From a virus: a stretch of 64,000 nt of DNA. The notes under the pieces are model-generated. The model ran no database searches. It saw only the letters and a list, made by a program, of their open reading frames with translations, and was not told the DNA's origin. Shown here in pieces: positions 9,853-35,579 of this stretch. Where the stretch lies: the IMG/VR virus record IMGVR_UViG_3300035701_009377, positions 1-64,000 of that record; one strand, 5' to 3'. Both the position numbers and the translations under genes were made by a program. How positions within the stretch are numbered: the stretch's first letter is position 1; the number at the start of each line of letters is the position of its first letter.

Positions 9853-9990
9853 TCAGCTTTCCGATTCGACGATGACCACGTTTGTTAGGAATTGGTGCCG
9901 ACCGTCGATCAACACGCTCCGGCACCGGGAGCCGATTCCAACCCAGGAAGGAGGCAAGGGTCTGGTTGCTTGACGGGCTACGGACGGCAC
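9853..9990 (-). CDS. Small protein or frameshifted tail of the neighbouring gene
   Basis: If it is a separate gene, the only in-frame start is GTG 9990, with no clear ribosome binding site, giving 45 residues ending VLIDGRHQFLTNVVIVESES. The frame is open upstream to about 10060, where it would join the end of the preceding gene after a one-base shift (DFYGPA then EIVEIEDFPSEAID). The sequence upstream of the GTG looks protein-like and acidic, so a frameshift in the upstream gene is the better explanation. Confidence 0.4.
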   Translation of the reverse strand: MPSVARQATRPLPPSWVGIGSRCRSVLIDGRHQFLTNVVIVESES

Positions 9991-9996
9991 ACCCGC
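9958..9996. repeat. 39-bp direct repeat, copy 1
   Basis: Matches 10655-10693 at about 34 of 39 positions. It is part of a tandem duplication that also multiplied the genes between and beside the two copies (9978-10634 and 10686-10976). Confidence 0.65.
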
Positions 9997-10634
9997 GTCG
10001 AGGTCGATGGCTTCCGAGGGGAAGTCTTCGATCTCGACGATTTCCGCCGCGCCGGCCCGTAGAAGTCGTACCCCTCGGGCACTTGGTAGTCGGCCGGCGG
10101 GAATTCGTGGTCGAGGCCCTTCGACAATTCCATCGCTATCTCGTTCCGGGCGGCCCGGAAGTTGGCCACACGGTTCATGCGGGTCCACAGTTCCTTGCTG
10201 GGCGTTTGGCGTAGCTCGACCATGGCGCGGAACTCGGGCCAGAATTCGGGGGGAATCTCGTGTCGCTTGAGGATGGCGTGCAGGCGTCGAGTGGTCATTG
10301 GTCGGTCGTGCGTTGGTCGTTGTTGGCTGCACGGCGCGGTCGCCGAACCCGCAAGAACTGAGCCTTCGGGCTCGATGTCTTCGGATCGCAACGATTCATA
10401 GGGCACCGGCGACCGGTAGTCGGCCGGCGGAAACTTGTGTCCTAGCGGCTTGGAGAGTTCGGTCAGAATCTCTTTCAGAGCCGCCTTGTAGTTGCGGACG
10501 CGGTTCAGGCGAGTCACCAGGGTGCGGCAGGGGCGCACCCCGTCTTCAACGAGCCCGTGCATCTCGGGCCAGAACTTCTCGGGGATCGCATGGCGCTTCA
10601 GGATGTCATCGAGGATGGGCAGTTTGACAATCAT
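9978..10634 (-). CDS. Two-copy protein of a repeated family (FWPE repeat)
   Basis: 218 residues made of two homologous units of about 90 residues. Unit 1 begins LDDILKRHAIPEKFWPEMHG and unit 2 LHAILKRHEIPPEFWPEFRA. Both continue with a TRLNRV/TRMNRV stretch, an ELSK segment and PPADY. A third unit is the separate gene 10686-10976. The units probably arose by tandem duplication; the second may once have been its own gene starting at about 10298 (MTTRRLHAIL). The C-terminal 25 residues are Arg/Ser/Lys-rich and look out of frame. Function unknown. A GGGA ribosome binding site precedes ATG 10634. Confidence 0.6.
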   Translation of the reverse strand: MIVKLPILDDILKRHAIPEKFWPEMHGLVEDGVRPCRTLVTRLNRVRNYKAALKEILTELSKPLGHKFPPADYRSPVPYESLRSEDIEPEGSVLAGSATAPCSQQRPTHDRPMTTRRLHAILKRHEIPPEFWPEFRAMVELRQTPSKELWTRMNRVANFRAARNEIAMELSKGLDHEFPPADYQVPEGYDFYGPARRKSSRSKTSPRKPSTSTRVCRP

Positions 10635-10654: not shown

Positions 10655-10693
10655 GGGTCTGGTTGTTTCACGGGCTGCGGCCGGCTCACCCGC
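10655..10693. repeat. 39-bp direct repeat, copy 2
   Basis: Partner of 9958-9996. It overlaps the 3' end of the single-unit FWPE gene. Confidence 0.65.
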
Positions 10694-10976
10694 CCGATGC
10701 CATAGTCATGGCATCTTCGGGACTCAGCGACTCGTATCTTTGCTGTTCCCACCGGCTGCGGAAATCGGCCGGCGGCCACTTGTGGTCCACCCGCGTGCAA
10801 AGCTCGGCCAAGATGTCGTTCAGGGCGGCCTTGTAGTTGGCCACGTAGACCAGCCGCGTCAGCAATTCCCGTCCCGGCCAGCGCCGCTCTTGGACGAACT
10901 GGCGAATCTCCGGCCAGAACTTGGGGTGGATTCCATGCTTCGCCAGGATGTCGTTCAGTGCGGGCAGTGCGATCAT
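10686..10976 (-). CDS. Single-copy protein of the FWPE repeat family
   Basis: 96 residues from ATG 10976, preceded by AAAGGGACC as ribosome binding site, as in the neighbouring copy. It reads LNDILAKHGIHPKFWPEIRQ and later KAALNDILAELCTRVDH and PPADF, aligning with both halves of the 218-residue gene downstream. The FWPE helix and the acidic end (SPEDAMTM) are conserved between copies. The family is unknown to me; three tandem units suggest selection for dosage or divergence. Confidence 0.62.
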   Translation of the reverse strand: MIALPALNDILAKHGIHPKFWPEIRQFVQERRWPGRELLTRLVYVANYKAALNDILAELCTRVDHKWPPADFRSRWEQQRYESLSPEDAMTMASGG

Positions 10977-11019
10977 GGTTGGTGGTCCCTTTCGTGTTGG
11001 CGTTCGCAATTGCACGTCC

Positions 11020-11126: not shown

Positions 11127-11531
11127 TTAGAACTCGACGTAGTTCACGCAGTTGGGCTTCGGCGTCGGCCGCTTTTGAGAGGTATCGAGATCGACCTTGA
11201 TCGTTAGGGTCACTTCATCGCGGTGTACGGTGACGTGAACAGTTGTGCCGGGCGGATGCCGCTGGATGGCGGCAATCAAATCGTCAAACCTTGGCGTCGG
11301 GTAATTGTTCACGCAGATGATGGTGTCACGGATTTGCAGACCGGCGCGTTCGGCCGTACTGCGGGCGGACACCTGTTCAATCTCGTTGGTCTTGGCCCGA
11401 AAGGTGATGCCTAGAAGTTCCAAGGCGGCCAGCCGTGCTGCTACTTCGTTGTCAACCTCGCGTAGGGCCTCAAGCTCGTTTTGACCGCTGATGTCGTCGT
11501 CAGGCTGTTCGCGCCAGTCGTTGTCGATCAT
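11127..11531 (-). CDS. PDZ domain protein
   Basis: 134 residues. After an acidic N-terminus, residues about 40-118 form a PDZ domain: LGITFRAKTNEIEQV, then SARSTAERAGLQIRDTI (A-G-L-x-x-x-D-x-I), VNNYPTPRFDDLIAAI and a final TTVHVTVHRDEVTLTIKV. In bacteria such domains are usually part of HtrA-like proteases or site-2 proteases and bind peptide C-termini. Here it stands alone, with no signal peptide. PDZ domains are rare in phages. A trypsin-like protease is encoded at 30881-31849; whether they interact is unknown. Confidence 0.8.
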   Translation of the reverse strand: MIDNDWREQPDDDISGQNELEALREVDNEVAARLAALELLGITFRAKTNEIEQVSARSTAERAGLQIRDTIICVNNYPTPRFDDLIAAIQRHPPGTTVHVTVHRDEVTLTIKVDLDTSQKRPTPKPNCVNYVEF

Positions 11532-11761
11532 TCGGTCATCTCCTTTGGCCAGGGCCAGTCGATGATCTCAAGGTCTTCCTCGGTTTCCCATTCCATGAAG
11601 GCCACGCGGTCCCAAATGCAGGGGACTTTCTTCGGCCGCTGCTGCGAAGGGTCGGCGGCCTCCAAGGCCGCGAGTCGTTTGCGGATTTCCAATTCATCCG
11701 CTCTTACTGAGTCGAAGTCGCTGCACATCTCAAAGATCAGGTCGTCTACGTTGCGATTCAT
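11528..11761 (-). CDS. Small acidic hypothetical protein
   Basis: 77 residues from ATG 11761, overlapping the methyltransferase stop as TAATG, and overlapping the PDZ gene start by ATGA. Reads MNRNVDDLIFEMCSDFDSVR with an acidic, tryptophan-rich end (EIIDWPWPKEM). No family recognised. Confidence 0.58.
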   Translation of the reverse strand: MNRNVDDLIFEMCSDFDSVRADELEIRKRLAALEAADPSQQRPKKVPCIWDRVAFMEWETEEDLEIIDWPWPKEMTE

Positions 11762-13035
11762 TACTCCGTCTCCCAGATCGCGCGGTGGATATATTGGCTT
11801 CGTACCATGCCGTGTTCCTCCGCGATCTTGGCGCAATAGCCGGCGTCGAGTTCGATCAGCGTGCAAGGGTTGCCAGTGCGTTTACACACCCTGAGCGTCG
11901 TGCCCGTGCCGCCGAAGGGGTCCAAGACAGATTCGCCCTCCGGCGTAGTGAGCCTGACGCAACGCTCGATCAGGCCCTCGTTGAGTTGCGTCGGATGCCA
12001 GGGCCGTCGCTGCTTGGAGTTGCCAGTCACGCGAGGGAAGTTGAAGACATCGCTCATTGCCAACTCACCCGTGACATGCCGCCATGTCTTCCGATCCTTG
12101 ATGGCCCGGATGTTGGCTTCCGTGACACCGTATTGTCGAGCAAGGCAGGTCGGGGTATCGGGTGACTGGTAAATGCGAACGACATCTTCGGTGGTCAACT
12201 TTGCCAATCCATTGTTCTCACCGTTTGGATGGTTCCCTCTCCGCTTGCTTTCTTTATCGCGGTTGTTGTCGTCATCAGTTCCGATGAATAGATGGTTCGG
12301 GTTGCAGCAACCAGGGTTATCGCAGGCGTGCAACACGAGTTGACCGATGGGGTCAACTCCGTGCGTCAGCCGCCACATGAGGCGCGTGGCAACGTATAGT
12401 TGCTCACCGACGCGGAAACGGCCGTAACCTGCGCGCTTACCGGCTGTCCATTCCCAACAATCCGTTTCACTGCGGCGGTCGATCTTTGCCAAAAAGCGTT
12501 CAACGTCTTGCGTGGTCCAATTCGGCAGCGGCAACGTGTCACGCTCGCCATACTCGAAATGAGCCACGTCGCCGGGCACCCGGCCGCGAGGATCGGCTCG
12601 CTTATCGCCGTTCTCTTGCCGCCAACTTGGGATGCGAATGGCGTCGGGGCACAACGGGGCTTCGGACCAGCGCAGCCGGAGCAGCGGCCGATGGTTGTTT
12701 CCCAGGTCATGGTGGCAATGCTGCCCGAATGTGAAGGTCTGGACGCACGGCTTGGCTTCCAGTCCGCTGGTGCGCCGGACCATTTCGGTCACGATCCGGC
12801 CGACCTCGAAGGTCCAGCGGGCGTTGTAGCTGAACCAGACGGTTTTGGCTTTGTGGATGAATAGATGAAGCCAGGTTTCGAGCAGATCGACGTACTGATG
12901 GTCAGGCAACTTGTCCTTGTAGGTCTGGTAGCCCAGGCCGATGTTATCGGGCGGGTCCGAAAAAATCGTGCAGAACACCTGTGGGGTTCCGTTGAGATAG
13001 TCGAGACAATTGGCGTTAATCAGGATGTGCTTCAT
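11761..13035 (-). CDS. DNA methyltransferase with embedded HNH/NUMOD homing nuclease domain
   Basis: 424 residues. Residues 1-157 carry the methyltransferase target motif FSDPPDNIG; residues 328-424 carry HPTQLNEGLIERC and the SAM-binding motif LDPFGGTGTT. Between them, residues about 158-327 (12055-12564) are an HNH nuclease: TDCWEWTAG, GYGRF, VLHACDNPGCCNPNHLFIGT and DDDNNRDKES, followed by a small helix-turn-helix (LTTEDVVRIYQ to IRAIKDRKTW) like the NUMOD DNA-binding modules of homing endonucleases. The reading frame stays open throughout. The methyltransferase halves join logically at GRVPGDV / FNFPRVTG. No intein splice residues are evident. The start ATG 13035 overlaps the upstream stop by ATGA. 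Confidence 0.88.
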   Translation of the reverse strand: MKHILINANCLDYLNGTPQVFCTIFSDPPDNIGLGYQTYKDKLPDHQYVDLLETWLHLFIHKAKTVWFSYNARWTFEVGRIVTEMVRRTSGLEAKPCVQTFTFGQHCHHDLGNNHRPLLRLRWSEAPLCPDAIRIPSWRQENGDKRADPRGRVPGDVAHFEYGERDTLPLPNWTTQDVERFLAKIDRRSETDCWEWTAGKRAGYGRFRVGEQLYVATRLMWRLTHGVDPIGQLVLHACDNPGCCNPNHLFIGTDDDNNRDKESKRRGNHPNGENNGLAKLTTEDVVRIYQSPDTPTCLARQYGVTEANIRAIKDRKTWRHVTGELAMSDVFNFPRVTGNSKQRRPWHPTQLNEGLIERCVRLTTPEGESVLDPFGGTGTTLRVCKRTGNPCTLIELDAGYCAKIAEEHGMVRSQYIHRAIWETE

Positions 13036-13304
13036 TGCTGCCTCGGGTTGCTGCCGCTGTGGCCGCGCTTGGCGACCACGACGTAGGTGCCGATCCAGCC
13101 GCCGAGGATGTACGCGGCCACAGCCAAGAAGCACTTCTCGACGATCAGCACTGTGGAGACGATGGTGCAAAGGTAGAGGACGGCACTCAGGTTCGCGGCG
13201 GCCATTGGTCGCCGTTGCATCACGGCGTTGACACAGCACGTCCACACCCAGTCCATTGCGAACCCGCAGGCGAAGGCACCCAGGAGCACTGTTACACTTG
13301 TCAT
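13032..13304 (-). CDS. Membrane protein, about three helices
   Basis: 90 residues with hydrophobic stretches VTVLLGAFACGFAMDWVW, LSAVLYLCTIVSTVLIV and CFLAVAAYILGGWIGTYVVV and a short basic tail. It resembles small phage membrane proteins of unknown role. Coupled to neighbours by ATGA overlaps at both ends. Confidence 0.65.
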   Translation of the reverse strand: MTSVTVLLGAFACGFAMDWVWTCCVNAVMQRRPMAAANLSAVLYLCTIVSTVLIVEKCFLAVAAYILGGWIGTYVVVAKRGHSGSNPRQQ

Positions 13305-15814: not shown

Positions 15815-16458
15815 GGCAGCAGCCCCCGGTAGGTGGACGCGCCGAGGCGGGTGCAGCCCAAGTCCAAATACAAGGCGGCGTCGGCGTAGGTCTTAATTCC
15901 TCCGCTGGCTTTCACCCCTGCCTTGCCATCGACGGCTTCCAAAATGGCCTTGACCGCTTCGAGCGTGGCCCCGCCGGGGCCGAAGCCGGTGGATGTCTTC
16001 ACGAAGTCCACGCCGCTTTCGACGCAGAGGCGGCACGCCTCGTGAATCTGCTCCGGCGTGTAGTGGGCCGTCTCTAAGATGGCTTTCACGAGCACGCCGC
16101 GAGGATGGGCAGCCTTGACGATGTTGGCGATGTCCCAGAAGGCGTCATGCCGGCCGCCATCGAGAAACCGGCCGTAGTTGACCACTACATCGAGTTCCTT
16201 CGCCCCGCAGTCCATCGCCACCACGGCCTCGGCGTACTTGGCCTCGGGCAGCGTGTTTCCGTGGGGAAAAGCAATCACCGCGCAGATGTTGCGGTACAGA
16301 CCGCTCGCCATCGGCACCCAGGCTGGCGCAACGCAAACCGCCTTGACCTTGCCGGCCACCGCCAAGGCGCAGGCGGCGCGCACGTCGGCGGCCGTGGCAG
16401 TCGGCTTGAGGACAGCCAAGTCCAGGGCGGCGGCAATCTGTTCCTTCGTGTAGCTCAT
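15811..16458 (-). CDS. deoC: Deoxyribose-phosphate aldolase
   Basis: 215 residues, the usual DeoC length. The enzyme cleaves 2-deoxyribose 5-phosphate to glyceraldehyde 3-phosphate and acetaldehyde through a Schiff base. FVKTSTGFGPGGAT contains the catalytic lysine (V-K-T-S-T-G), VKASGGIKTYADA the second conserved lysine stretch, and ELDVVVNYGRFLDG the TIM-barrel strand with the conserved Asp. Nothing is missing. It is coupled by ATGA overlap to the deoxyribosyltransferase-like gene, fitting breakdown of host deoxynucleosides. deoC is uncommon in phages. Confidence 0.93.
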   Translation of the reverse strand: MSYTKEQIAAALDLAVLKPTATAADVRAACALAVAGKVKAVCVAPAWVPMASGLYRNICAVIAFPHGNTLPEAKYAEAVVAMDCGAKELDVVVNYGRFLDGGRHDAFWDIANIVKAAHPRGVLVKAILETAHYTPEQIHEACRLCVESGVDFVKTSTGFGPGGATLEAVKAILEAVDGKAGVKASGGIKTYADAALYLDLGCTRLGASTYRGLLP

Positions 16459-17840
16459 AAGGTTCTCGATTCCAAGCGGGCGGCCGTGATGTCACAGTTG
16501 TGGGCATCCAGCTCGACGCCGATGCAGGGACGACCCAGTTTCTTTGCGGCGATGAGGGTTGTCCCACTGCCGGCGAAGGGGTCCAGAATGACGCCGCCGG
16601 TCGGCGTGGAGAGCAGCGTCAGCAGATAGCCCATCAAGTCGAGCGGCTTGACCGTGGGATGGTCGTTGCCCAGGCCGCGCTCCTTCTTTGTCGACTTGCC
16701 GCAGTAGAAGAACCGAGATGCCCCGCCGGAGTCGCCGAAGGTGCCGGTGGCCGAGGCCGTGTCCGGGAAACCTCCGTGATAGCCGCCCTCTCCCTTGCTG
16801 CGGTTGCGCTGCTGGCCGGCCTTCATCTTGCCGCTGGTGAGCGTGCCAGTCTGGGCGTCCAGCCTTCCCACCGGACAGTCGGGATGGCATTCGTAGACGG
16901 GCACGACCTCATTGCCGTAGACGCGAGCATTTGGCTCGCCATCGCCAGAGTCCGCGCCCACGTTGCCGAACCCGCCGGGCCGGCGGCCGGCGCAGTTGCC
17001 CCGCGGATCGCCGCGCAGGACCGTCGTACCGACTTGCCGGCACTCGGGATGGTGCTCCAAGAGCAGGTTCGCCGGCCAGCGGCCGAGGGGAAATACGCGT
17101 TCTGCGACGCTGCGGGTCTCTTCGTACTCGGTGGCGTGCCAGGGGCCGGCTTTTCCCTTCCCTGACGAAAGCCACTTCTCGCCGTACTCGGCGGCATAGT
17201 CGCATGGTATCCGGCAGGCGTCGATGTTCATGCCGGCGACGCCGTGGCGTTGAGCGTTCTGTGCAAAGGTGCCATCGAGCGGCTTCATCGCCAGGACGAT
17301 CGGTTCCCAGGCGGGCTTCAGGGAGGAGCCCCAGCCGTTCCAGCGATTGGCAACTTCGGTGGCCGGAATGGTGTCGAGGATTTCGACATTGCCGGCCTTG
17401 CCGTGTCGCTGCCGGTTCTGGTAGCTGTCGCCGCGGATGTCCGGCTGCGTGCGTCTGCCAACCACCTCCCGCTCTGCCCCTGCCGCCTTGTCGAGGGCCT
17501 TGGAGATGTCCAGCGATTTCGGGAATCCCTGGCCATAGAGCCACATCAAGCAGTCACGGATTTCCCAGCCGGCATCCTCGATGGCATCGACGAGCCGGTG
17601 CCAGGTCCGCGTGCCGCCAAAGGCCAGCAGCATTGCGCCGGGCTTGCACACGCCGGCAATCGCCTTCCAGTAAGGCGGGCCGGGAACATCGAAATCCCAG
17701 TCCTTTTCCATGAAGCCCAGGCCGTAGGGCGGATCGGTGACAACGAAGTCCACCGTGTTCGGCTGCATCGCTTGGGGCAGCACCTCCCGCAGGTCGCCGT
17801 GGTAAAGCGTGATGTCGTTTTTCTCGTAGTAAGGCTGCAT
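16455..17840 (-). CDS. DNA methyltransferase (DPPY type)
   Basis: 461 residues. The target motif VTDPPYGLGF lies near residue 35 and the SAM motif VILDPFAGSGTTLIAAK near residue 425, the beta-class order of N6-adenine or N4-cytosine methyltransferases. A long central region with GDSGGASRFFYCGKSTKKE and HPTVKPLDLMGYLLTLLST is shared with the paralogue at 34392-35579. ATG 17840 is preceded by a 120-base intergenic gap, so a promoter may lie there. It modifies DNA, probably to protect phage DNA from host restriction. Confidence 0.9.
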   Translation of the reverse strand: MQPYYEKNDITLYHGDLREVLPQAMQPNTVDFVVTDPPYGLGFMEKDWDFDVPGPPYWKAIAGVCKPGAMLLAFGGTRTWHRLVDAIEDAGWEIRDCLMWLYGQGFPKSLDISKALDKAAGAEREVVGRRTQPDIRGDSYQNRQRHGKAGNVEILDTIPATEVANRWNGWGSSLKPAWEPIVLAMKPLDGTFAQNAQRHGVAGMNIDACRIPCDYAAEYGEKWLSSGKGKAGPWHATEYEETRSVAERVFPLGRWPANLLLEHHPECRQVGTTVLRGDPRGNCAGRRPGGFGNVGADSGDGEPNARVYGNEVVPVYECHPDCPVGRLDAQTGTLTSGKMKAGQQRNRSKGEGGYHGGFPDTASATGTFGDSGGASRFFYCGKSTKKERGLGNDHPTVKPLDLMGYLLTLLSTPTGGVILDPFAGSGTTLIAAKKLGRPCIGVELDAHNCDITAARLESRTL

Positions 17841-34391: not shown

Positions 34392-35579
34392 CTACAAGGA
34401 TTCCAGTCGGCTCGTCGCGATCTCGCAGTAGTGCTCGTCGAGTTCAACGCCGATGCAACGACGACCGATTTGTCGGGCGGCCAGGAGCGTCGTGCCGCTG
34501 CCGGCGAACGGGTCGAGGATCACGCCGCCCTCTGGGGTCGAAAGGAGGGTCAGTAGATATTCCATCAGCGCGAGAGGTTTGACCGTGGCGTGATCGTTGC
34601 CCGGCCCGCGCTCCTTCTTCGTGGCCTTCGAGCAATAGAAGAATCGGCTTGCCCCGCCAGAGTCGCCGTAGCTCACCTGCACGTCGCCCGCTTTACCGAT
34701 GCGCCCGTGATAGCCATCACCGGGCTTGCTGCGGACACAGTTCGTGCCGCTGGTGAGAGTGCCGGTCTGGGCGTCGAGAAGGCGGGCTGCTTCCTCGTCC
34801 AAGAGCAGGTTCGCCGGCCAACGACCACACTCTGAACCGCCCACGGGCGAACGATTAGTGCTGGCCCAGCCCGCGTCAGTCAGGCTATCGCCGCGCGTGC
34901 GAACGGTGCTCTCGGTGCCGATGCGGGAGGCGTCGATGTTCATGCCGGCCACGCCCCACGTCAGGGCATTGTGGGCAATCGTGCCGTCCAACGGCTTCAT
35001 CGCGAGGACGAGCGGCTCGAAGGCCGGCTTCAGGGCCATCGCCCAGCCGGTCCATTTCGTCGCTTCGGGAGTAGCCGGGGCTGTGATGGCGCACTCCGCC
35101 TCGGGATTGTGCAGGTCGCCGTAGACCTCGTTCGTGCGGCCATTGTTCGCCAAGGAGTAGCCGGGCCGCCCCAGCTTCGTGCCGATGACTTCGCGCTTGA
35201 TCCCCTTGGCCTTGTCGATGAGCTTGCCGATGTCGCCGCACTTGGGCATCCCCTGCCCATAGAGCCACATCAGGCAGTCCCGGATTTCCCAGCCGGCCTC
35301 TTCGATGGCGCAGGTCAGGCGGTGGTAGGTCCGCGTGCCACCGAAGGCCAGCAGCAGCGCACCCGGCTTGCACACGCGGGCAATGGCCTGCCAATAGAGC
35401 GGGCCGGGGACGCCGTGGTCCCAGCCCTTGCCCATGAAGGAAAGGCCGTAGGGCGGGTCTGTGAGCGCGAAGTCAACCGACGCCTCGGGCAGCGCCGGCA
35501 GCACGTCGAGCAAGTCGCCGTGGTAGATCGTGATGTCGTTCTTGTCGTAGTACGGTTGCAAAGGATCACCAAGCCACAA
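34392..35579 (-). CDS. DNA methyltransferase (DPPY type), paralogue
   Basis: About 395 residues if TTG 35579 is used; TTG 35561 (QPYYDKNDITIYHGDLLDVL) aligns with the start of the paralogue at 17840 and may be the true start. It has ALTDPPYGLSFMGKG as target motif and ILDPFAGSGTTLLAAR as SAM motif, and shares YGDSGGASRFFYCSKATKKE and a VKPLALMEYLLTLLST segment with the 16455-17840 gene. The two arose by duplication or separate capture. One could provide a second specificity. Confidence 0.88.
   Translation of the reverse strand: MWLGDPLQPYYDKNDITIYHGDLLDVLPALPEASVDFALTDPPYGLSFMGKGWDHGVPGPLYWQAIARVCKPGALLLAFGGTRTYHRLTCAIEEAGWEIRDCLMWLYGQGMPKCGDIGKLIDKAKGIKREVIGTKLGRPGYSLANNGRTNEVYGDLHNPEAECAITAPATPEATKWTGWAMALKPAFEPLVLAMKPLDGTIAHNALTWGVAGMNIDASRIGTESTVRTRGDSLTDAGWASTNRSPVGGSECGRWPANLLLDEEAARLLDAQTGTLTSGTNCVRSKPGDGYHGRIGKAGDVQVSYGDSGGASRFFYCSKATKKERGPGNDHATVKPLALMEYLLTLLSTPEGGVILDPFAGSGTTLLAARQIGRRCIGVELDEHYCEIATSRLESL

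Follow-up and report, generated by a model that had tools for sequence, protein, structure and literature searches.

Homing endonucleases normally spare the genes that they invade, being placed in introns, in inteins or between genes. An HNH nuclease forming a single chain with an intact host enzyme, which an initial reading of the DNA discussed here (the sequence-only reading) called unusual, is indeed rarely described, but precedents have been published (PMC11855218; PMC9957025). The closest is the ShiLan domain in the gp65 methylase of Mycobacterium phage ShiLan, an HNH insertion with no intron or intein features, in which the HNH occupies a frame other than that of the methylase, running from a GTG start to a TAA stop of its own, and the methylase itself thus carries a non-HNH peptide (PMC11855218). 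In the Taj gp79 family, reported by the same authors' group and belonging to the same methylase family as ShiLan gp65, a lone in-frame LAGLIDADG endonuclease occurs without a splicing domain and is predicted to form its own domain, and the authors saw no strong evidence of its movement between lineages (PMC9957025). In-frame fusions of LAGLIDADG coding sequence to fungal mitochondrial rps3 are credited to Gibb and Hausner 2005 in a further source (PMC7902536). Finally, mobE lies within nrdA of phage Aeh1 and mobA within gene 60 of phage T4, and the Aeh1 reductase reportedly keeps its function (PMC2988022).

The gene considered here lies in a window of 64,000 nucleotides (the whole stretch of DNA analysed, positions 1 to 64,000 of the 75,407-bp IMG/VR virus record IMGVR_UViG_3300035701_009377). 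The source virus is probably a tailed phage, judging from its genes for a major head protein, a minor tail protein, a DNA polymerase and a helicase. On the minus strand, an open reading frame extends from an ATG at 13035 to a TAA at 11761-11763 and encodes 424 amino acids with no internal stop. Its features are as follows.

11761 to 13035, minus strand: whole interrupted gene, a putative DNA methyltransferase with an embedded HNH-helix-turn-helix nuclease, 424 amino acids plus stop
13032 to 13035, minus strand: ATGA, in which the stop of the upstream open reading frame overlaps the methyltransferase start
12565 to 13035, minus strand: N-terminal half of the methyltransferase, residues 1-157
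12946 to 12957, minus strand: motif IV, DPPD, residues 27-30
12055 to 12564, minus strand: in-frame insert, a predicted complete HNH-helix-turn-helix nuclease of 170 codons, residues 158-327
12259 to 12384, minus strand: HNH_3 core, residues 218-259, placed by Pfam and by alignment to I-PpoI
12055 to 12213, minus strand: C-terminal helix-turn-helix region of the insert, from an AlphaFold2 model and conserved in freestanding relatives
12046 to 12054, minus strand: SDV, the right-edge copy of the insertion-site xDV, included in the net gain of 173 codons
11764 to 12045, minus strand: C-terminal half of the methyltransferase, beginning FNFPRVTGN
11986 to 11997, minus strand: HPTQ, residues 347-350
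11896 to 11919, minus strand: PFGGTGTT, residues 373-380
11759 to 11763, minus strand: TAATG, in which the methyltransferase stop overlaps the start of the next open reading frame

Along the chain, DPPD is followed by GRVPGDV (ending at residue 157), the insert (residues 158-327), SDVFNFPRVTGN, HPTQ and PFGGTGTT. Both the placement of an HNH nuclease in frame within a methyltransferase at 12055-12564, limits that prove to be the exact edges of the insert, and the proposed order of DPPD, HNH, helix-turn-helix, HPTQ and FGGTGTT in one stop-free frame are borne out by the open reading frame, the Pfam matches and, for the helix-turn-helix, an AlphaFold model. The overlaps with the neighbouring open reading frames at ATGA and TAATG suggest that translation proceeds through the entire gene. 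Elsewhere in the neighbourhood, a small protein encoded at 11127-11531 (minus strand) is unusual for a phage in bearing a PDZ domain (PF13180, E=2e-11), and two adjacent small open reading frames (9978-10634 and 10686-11015, minus strand) encode a duplicated domain without known role, with repeats of the form HxIPxxFWPE...TRLNRVxNYKAA...HxFPPADY within and between them.

Like the ShiLan domain, the insert places an HNH within the methylase of a phage while leaving the host frame free of stops, is patchily distributed and does not define a single clade of host genes, but the HNH is out of the methylase frame there and in frame here. In a BLASTP comparison, ShiLan gp65 gives no significant match to the interrupted gene and instead matches two other methyltransferases of the window, and thus the two insertions arose in different methylase families. 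These two further methyltransferases (16455-17840 and 34392-35579, minus strand) are homologous to ShiLan gp65 and about 50-68% identical to each other, with no HNH match seen in either. The likeness to Taj gp79 lies in an in-frame homing endonuclease domain within a phage methylase that lacks a splicing domain; there, however, the nuclease is of the LAGLIDADG rather than the HNH type, whereas the insert of the window conflicts with its host tree and has empty and relic counterparts. The rps3 fusions likewise join the coding sequence of a homing endonuclease in frame to a host gene, but they are fungal, involve LAGLIDADG enzymes and have a group I intron setting. MobE of Aeh1 and MobA of T4 are phage HNH homing endonucleases within a coding gene, as here, yet their host genes are split into separate coding regions and that of the window forms one frame. 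Set against these precedents, the present case unites a nuclease read in frame with signs that it has moved and decayed.

The two ends of the interrupted gene match the Pfam N6_N4_Mtase family (E=8.6e-22), and the host gene is predicted, from this match and from its fit to the fold of M.BceJIV, to encode a beta-class N6/N4 DNA methyltransferase with DPPD as motif IV. This motif is unusual but strongly conserved, with DPPD rather than DPPY/F/W present in 66 of the 70 family loci scanned, and renders methyltransferase activity uncertain with or without the insert. In an AlphaFold model of the full chain, both halves form one confident domain despite the intervening insert, and this domain superposes on M.BceJIV (PDB 8urk) with a Z score of 22.8 over 229 residues (rmsd 4.0, 21% identity). 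The beta-class N6-adenine methyltransferase fold of M.BceJIV spans both halves in the model; M.BceJIV differs in having no insert and a DPPY motif. Confidence is low within the insert itself, as only three alignment rows cover it, and the prediction, leaning on uninterrupted homologues, is no proof that the methyltransferase folds around its insert.

Within the insert, residues 218-259 match Pfam HNH_3 (E=1.6e-6; 28.1 bits against a cutoff of 24.8), and HNH/endonuclease families of the PHROG collection match the insert with values down to 1e-29. For a profile built from the insert and its freestanding relatives, the match to I-PpoI is weak (E=0.01) yet free of gaps across the active site, such that H98, C100, C105, H110 and N119 of I-PpoI align with H236, C238, C243, H248 and N257 of the insert. 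The catalytic residues of I-PpoI, H98 and N119, and its zinc ligands, C100, C105 and H110, are accordingly all conserved in the insert. When folded alone together with its freestanding relatives, the insert is modelled with a pLDDT of 81.5 and finds its best structural matches, at a middling level, in the His-Me/HNH folds of I-HmuI (1u3e; Z 7.4) and I-PpoI (1a74, 1evw; Z 7.0), enzymes that are intron-encoded and freestanding, whereas the present nuclease is embedded. The C-terminal part of this model, with helices at insert residues 125-169, is matched by helix-turn-helix proteins. Of the original designation as an HNH/NUMOD nuclease with a helix-turn-helix, the latter element is therefore supported, but the NUMOD label is not, as no Pfam NUMOD match was found at E<=1. 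The insert would thus comprise a complete, putatively catalytic nuclease of the HNH_3/I-PpoI-like type and a helix-turn-helix. All 79 relatives of the HNH-HTH gene found on viral contigs reach a stop no more than 149 codons from the catalytic-site His, as expected of freestanding genes, making embedding unusual for this nuclease family. One other HNH-HTH gene (L101, 2001-2988) runs on in frame for about 150 codons, apparently into another protein that by eye resembles a secreted lytic-type protein; HNH_3 is its only Pfam match, and it is a possible in-frame fusion. An alignment that mixed freestanding HNH nucleases with methyltransferases was misaligned and was discarded.

Alignment to uninterrupted homologues, the check put forward with the sequence-only reading, defines the insertion edges at 12564 and 12055. 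The site is empty and reads RVPGDVFDFTRVVGN in most homologues (about 60 IMG/VR loci), and the possibility raised earlier that homologues always contain the segment, as part of a methyltransferase-specific domain, is thereby ruled out. The nine distinct uninterrupted homologues aligned first (L002-L005 and L007-L011), each of about 250 amino acids, all read RGRVPGDVFDFTRVVGNSKQRRPWHPTQ, where the methyltransferase of the window has RGRVPGDV, followed by 170 codons with GCT and ATG at their edges and then by SDVFNFPRVTGNSKQRRPWHPTQ. An xDV triplet found at each edge brings the net gain to 173 codons instead of 170. The same 173-codon insert is found in frame and at the same codon boundary in two phage contigs, L001 (77% identical) and L017 (70%); the three filled copies come from separate samples, are 69-73% identical in amino acid sequence and contain no indels relative to one another, and an assembly artefact is ruled out by this recurrence at the same site in contigs from other metagenomes. 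In a fourth gene, L030, the site holds an in-frame relic of 55 codons, from which the HNH core is missing while part of the helix-turn-helix (RIEDVIRIVQSKDTNAALTKRYGVSDAAIDCIRNG) is retained, and the methyltransferase frame is intact. The known copies are thus few, amounting to three intact inserts and one relic.

Widening the scan brought in 71 loci, almost all from this methyltransferase family; in those that were inspected, the site proved empty apart from L001, L017, L030 and a few loci with short in-frame peptides. The latter (L134, L147, which is identical to L044, L150, L153 and L168) carry about 11-70 amino acids at the insertion site, bordered by copies of the site motif such as PGDVLDF...PGDVLDF in L150, and are possibly scars of earlier insertions, or else an expandable loop. 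What looked like a second insertion in L010 is an empty gene of the ordinary kind that tblastn had merged with a gene upstream of it. Two freestanding HNH-HTH genes (L027, 3190-3860; L044, 3228-3779) overlap the 3' end of methyltransferases of the same family, and in L027 a displaced C-terminal methyltransferase fragment (CTLIELDKDYYNNIAKEHGLNP) follows the HNH, which suggests a second insertion point. From genome_contigs, a scan recovered just four methyltransferases, all more distant, of which three lie in Planctomycetota MAGs, and among annotated phage records none reached 80% coverage of the query. A search of IMG/VR with the pattern G(R/S)VPGDV-Ala gave 27 matches, in which the only methyltransferases were the three known family members.

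The open frame through the insert is not attributable to chance: when the 519 nt were shuffled with their composition kept, 0.04% of the shuffles had no in-frame stop, and in each of the three filled copies the remaining five frames contain 1-12 stops. With the HNH in the methylase frame and the other frames closed, an arrangement of the ShiLan type is ruled out. A group I or II intron is likewise discounted, Rfam having given no match even at E<=1 on either strand of 11600-13200, which covers the gene and its flanks. A recognizable intein is ruled out in turn: Pfam finds no intein match in the gene, and the HNH and helix-turn-helix fill the 170 amino acids, leaving no space for a splicing domain of some 130 residues. 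The earlier remark that intein splice residues are not visible holds as well, as the insert ends in Met or Leu and not in His-Asn. An intein or small self-splicing intron of an unrecognised kind, removed from the protein or the RNA, would account for an insertion that falls among conserved residues in a gene that is itself conserved, a location typical of inteins, and for the Ala that begins the insert and the Ser that follows it in all four copies; set against the Rfam, size and terminal-residue evidence, this reading is very improbable.

Somewhat less remote, though still unlikely, is a split gene, in which the HNH or the C-terminal half would be started internally or released by a protease and the pieces would assemble as in Aeh1 NrdA. 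The window does contain an ATG at codon 327 with GGTGA 7 nt upstream and a GTG at codon 157, but the former and its Shine-Dalgarno sequence are missing from L001 and L017, and the latter has a weak GGTG only in the window and L001, with none in L017. An internal start with a Shine-Dalgarno sequence common to all copies was not found, and an internal translation start was rejected as it is not conserved among them. Moreover, the frame is open in every copy, including the relic, a constraint for which a split gene would have no need. The simplest reading, judged computationally to be free of splicing, is that the gene product is most likely one 424-aa fusion chain.

In methyltransferase trees built without the insert, the filled and relic genes are scattered, requiring four changes, and the AU test rejects a single clade of the three filled genes (p 1.2e-44 for protein, 1.3e-61 for DNA). 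L017 is the sister of the empty L035 (support 100/93), and the window nests with the empty L002-L007. The inserts, by comparison, form one clade (99/96) within which L001 pairs with L017 (98/88), in conflict with the host tree, which pairs the window with L001; codon bootstraps concur (97% and >99%). Recombination with empty alleles that repeatedly removed the insert could also have contributed to this patchiness. In all three filled copies the GC3 of the insert (0.63-0.66) differs from that of the flanks (0.78-0.87). Nucleotide identity of the window to L002, L003, L004 and L007 is 73-76% in the right flank and 82-84% in the left, and the weaker right-flank identity is as co-conversion would give, although the sequences compared are few. 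The inserts (66-72% nucleotide identity) have diverged as much as their hosts (67-79%), indicating that the transfers are old rather than recent. Comparisons among the filled copies give a pN/pS of 0.20-0.49 for the two parts of the methyltransferase and of 0.25-0.27 for the insert, synonymous sites being close to saturated, and purifying selection on all parts implies that both the interrupted enzyme and the nuclease are kept as proteins.

Such selection would also be expected if the HNH-HTH had been exapted as a working part of the enzyme, either as a one-chain restriction-modification system or as a retargeted methyltransferase, and comparison with M.BceJIV does place the insertion close to the target-recognition region. 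Most homologues, however, have no insert, the distribution is patchy and the trees conflict, the nuclease is I-PpoI-like and distinct in composition, and the relic allele keeps its methyltransferase after losing the HNH core, all of which make exaptation improbable. The insert is instead probably a patchily distributed, homing cassette whose host gene stays one open reading frame, and it is likely that an HNH-HTH homing-type gene was inserted in frame, is expressed as one fusion chain and spreads by cutting empty alleles. In the mechanism proposed, an I-PpoI-like HNH_3 and helix-turn-helix gene would enter a conserved methyltransferase site without start and stop codons of its own and be read in the methyltransferase frame, with its domain protruding from the loop that connects the target-recognition region with motif X. 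The HNH-HTH of the fusion would cut or nick uninterrupted methyltransferase genes of co-infecting phages near the junction of CCCGGCGACGTG and TTCGA(T/C)TTC, and recombinational repair would copy the insert into the cut allele. The stop-free, in-frame state would let the host gene survive without splicing, and the nuclease may later decay through in-frame deletion to leave a relic. The exact in-frame insertion, the three kinds of allele, their patchy distribution, the tree conflict and the purifying selection are observed, whereas we infer that the nuclease cleaves and homes, that the fusion still methylates and that it escapes both splicing and proteolysis.

If true, a nuclease moving between alleles while fused in frame would represent a third route, one that the host protein tolerates. 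A bolder and rather doubtful extension is that these elements act as 'splice-free inteins', nucleases that would persist in frame in a tolerated loop of a host protein, at a single hot spot of one family of methyltransferases, passing among an empty site, an intact insert, an in-frame relic and short site-duplicating scars, with a fusion that both methylates and cuts. In-frame fusion of this kind may be an early step toward an intein or a new multidomain enzyme, and with one gene known in empty, filled and relic form, the idea is open to a direct test.
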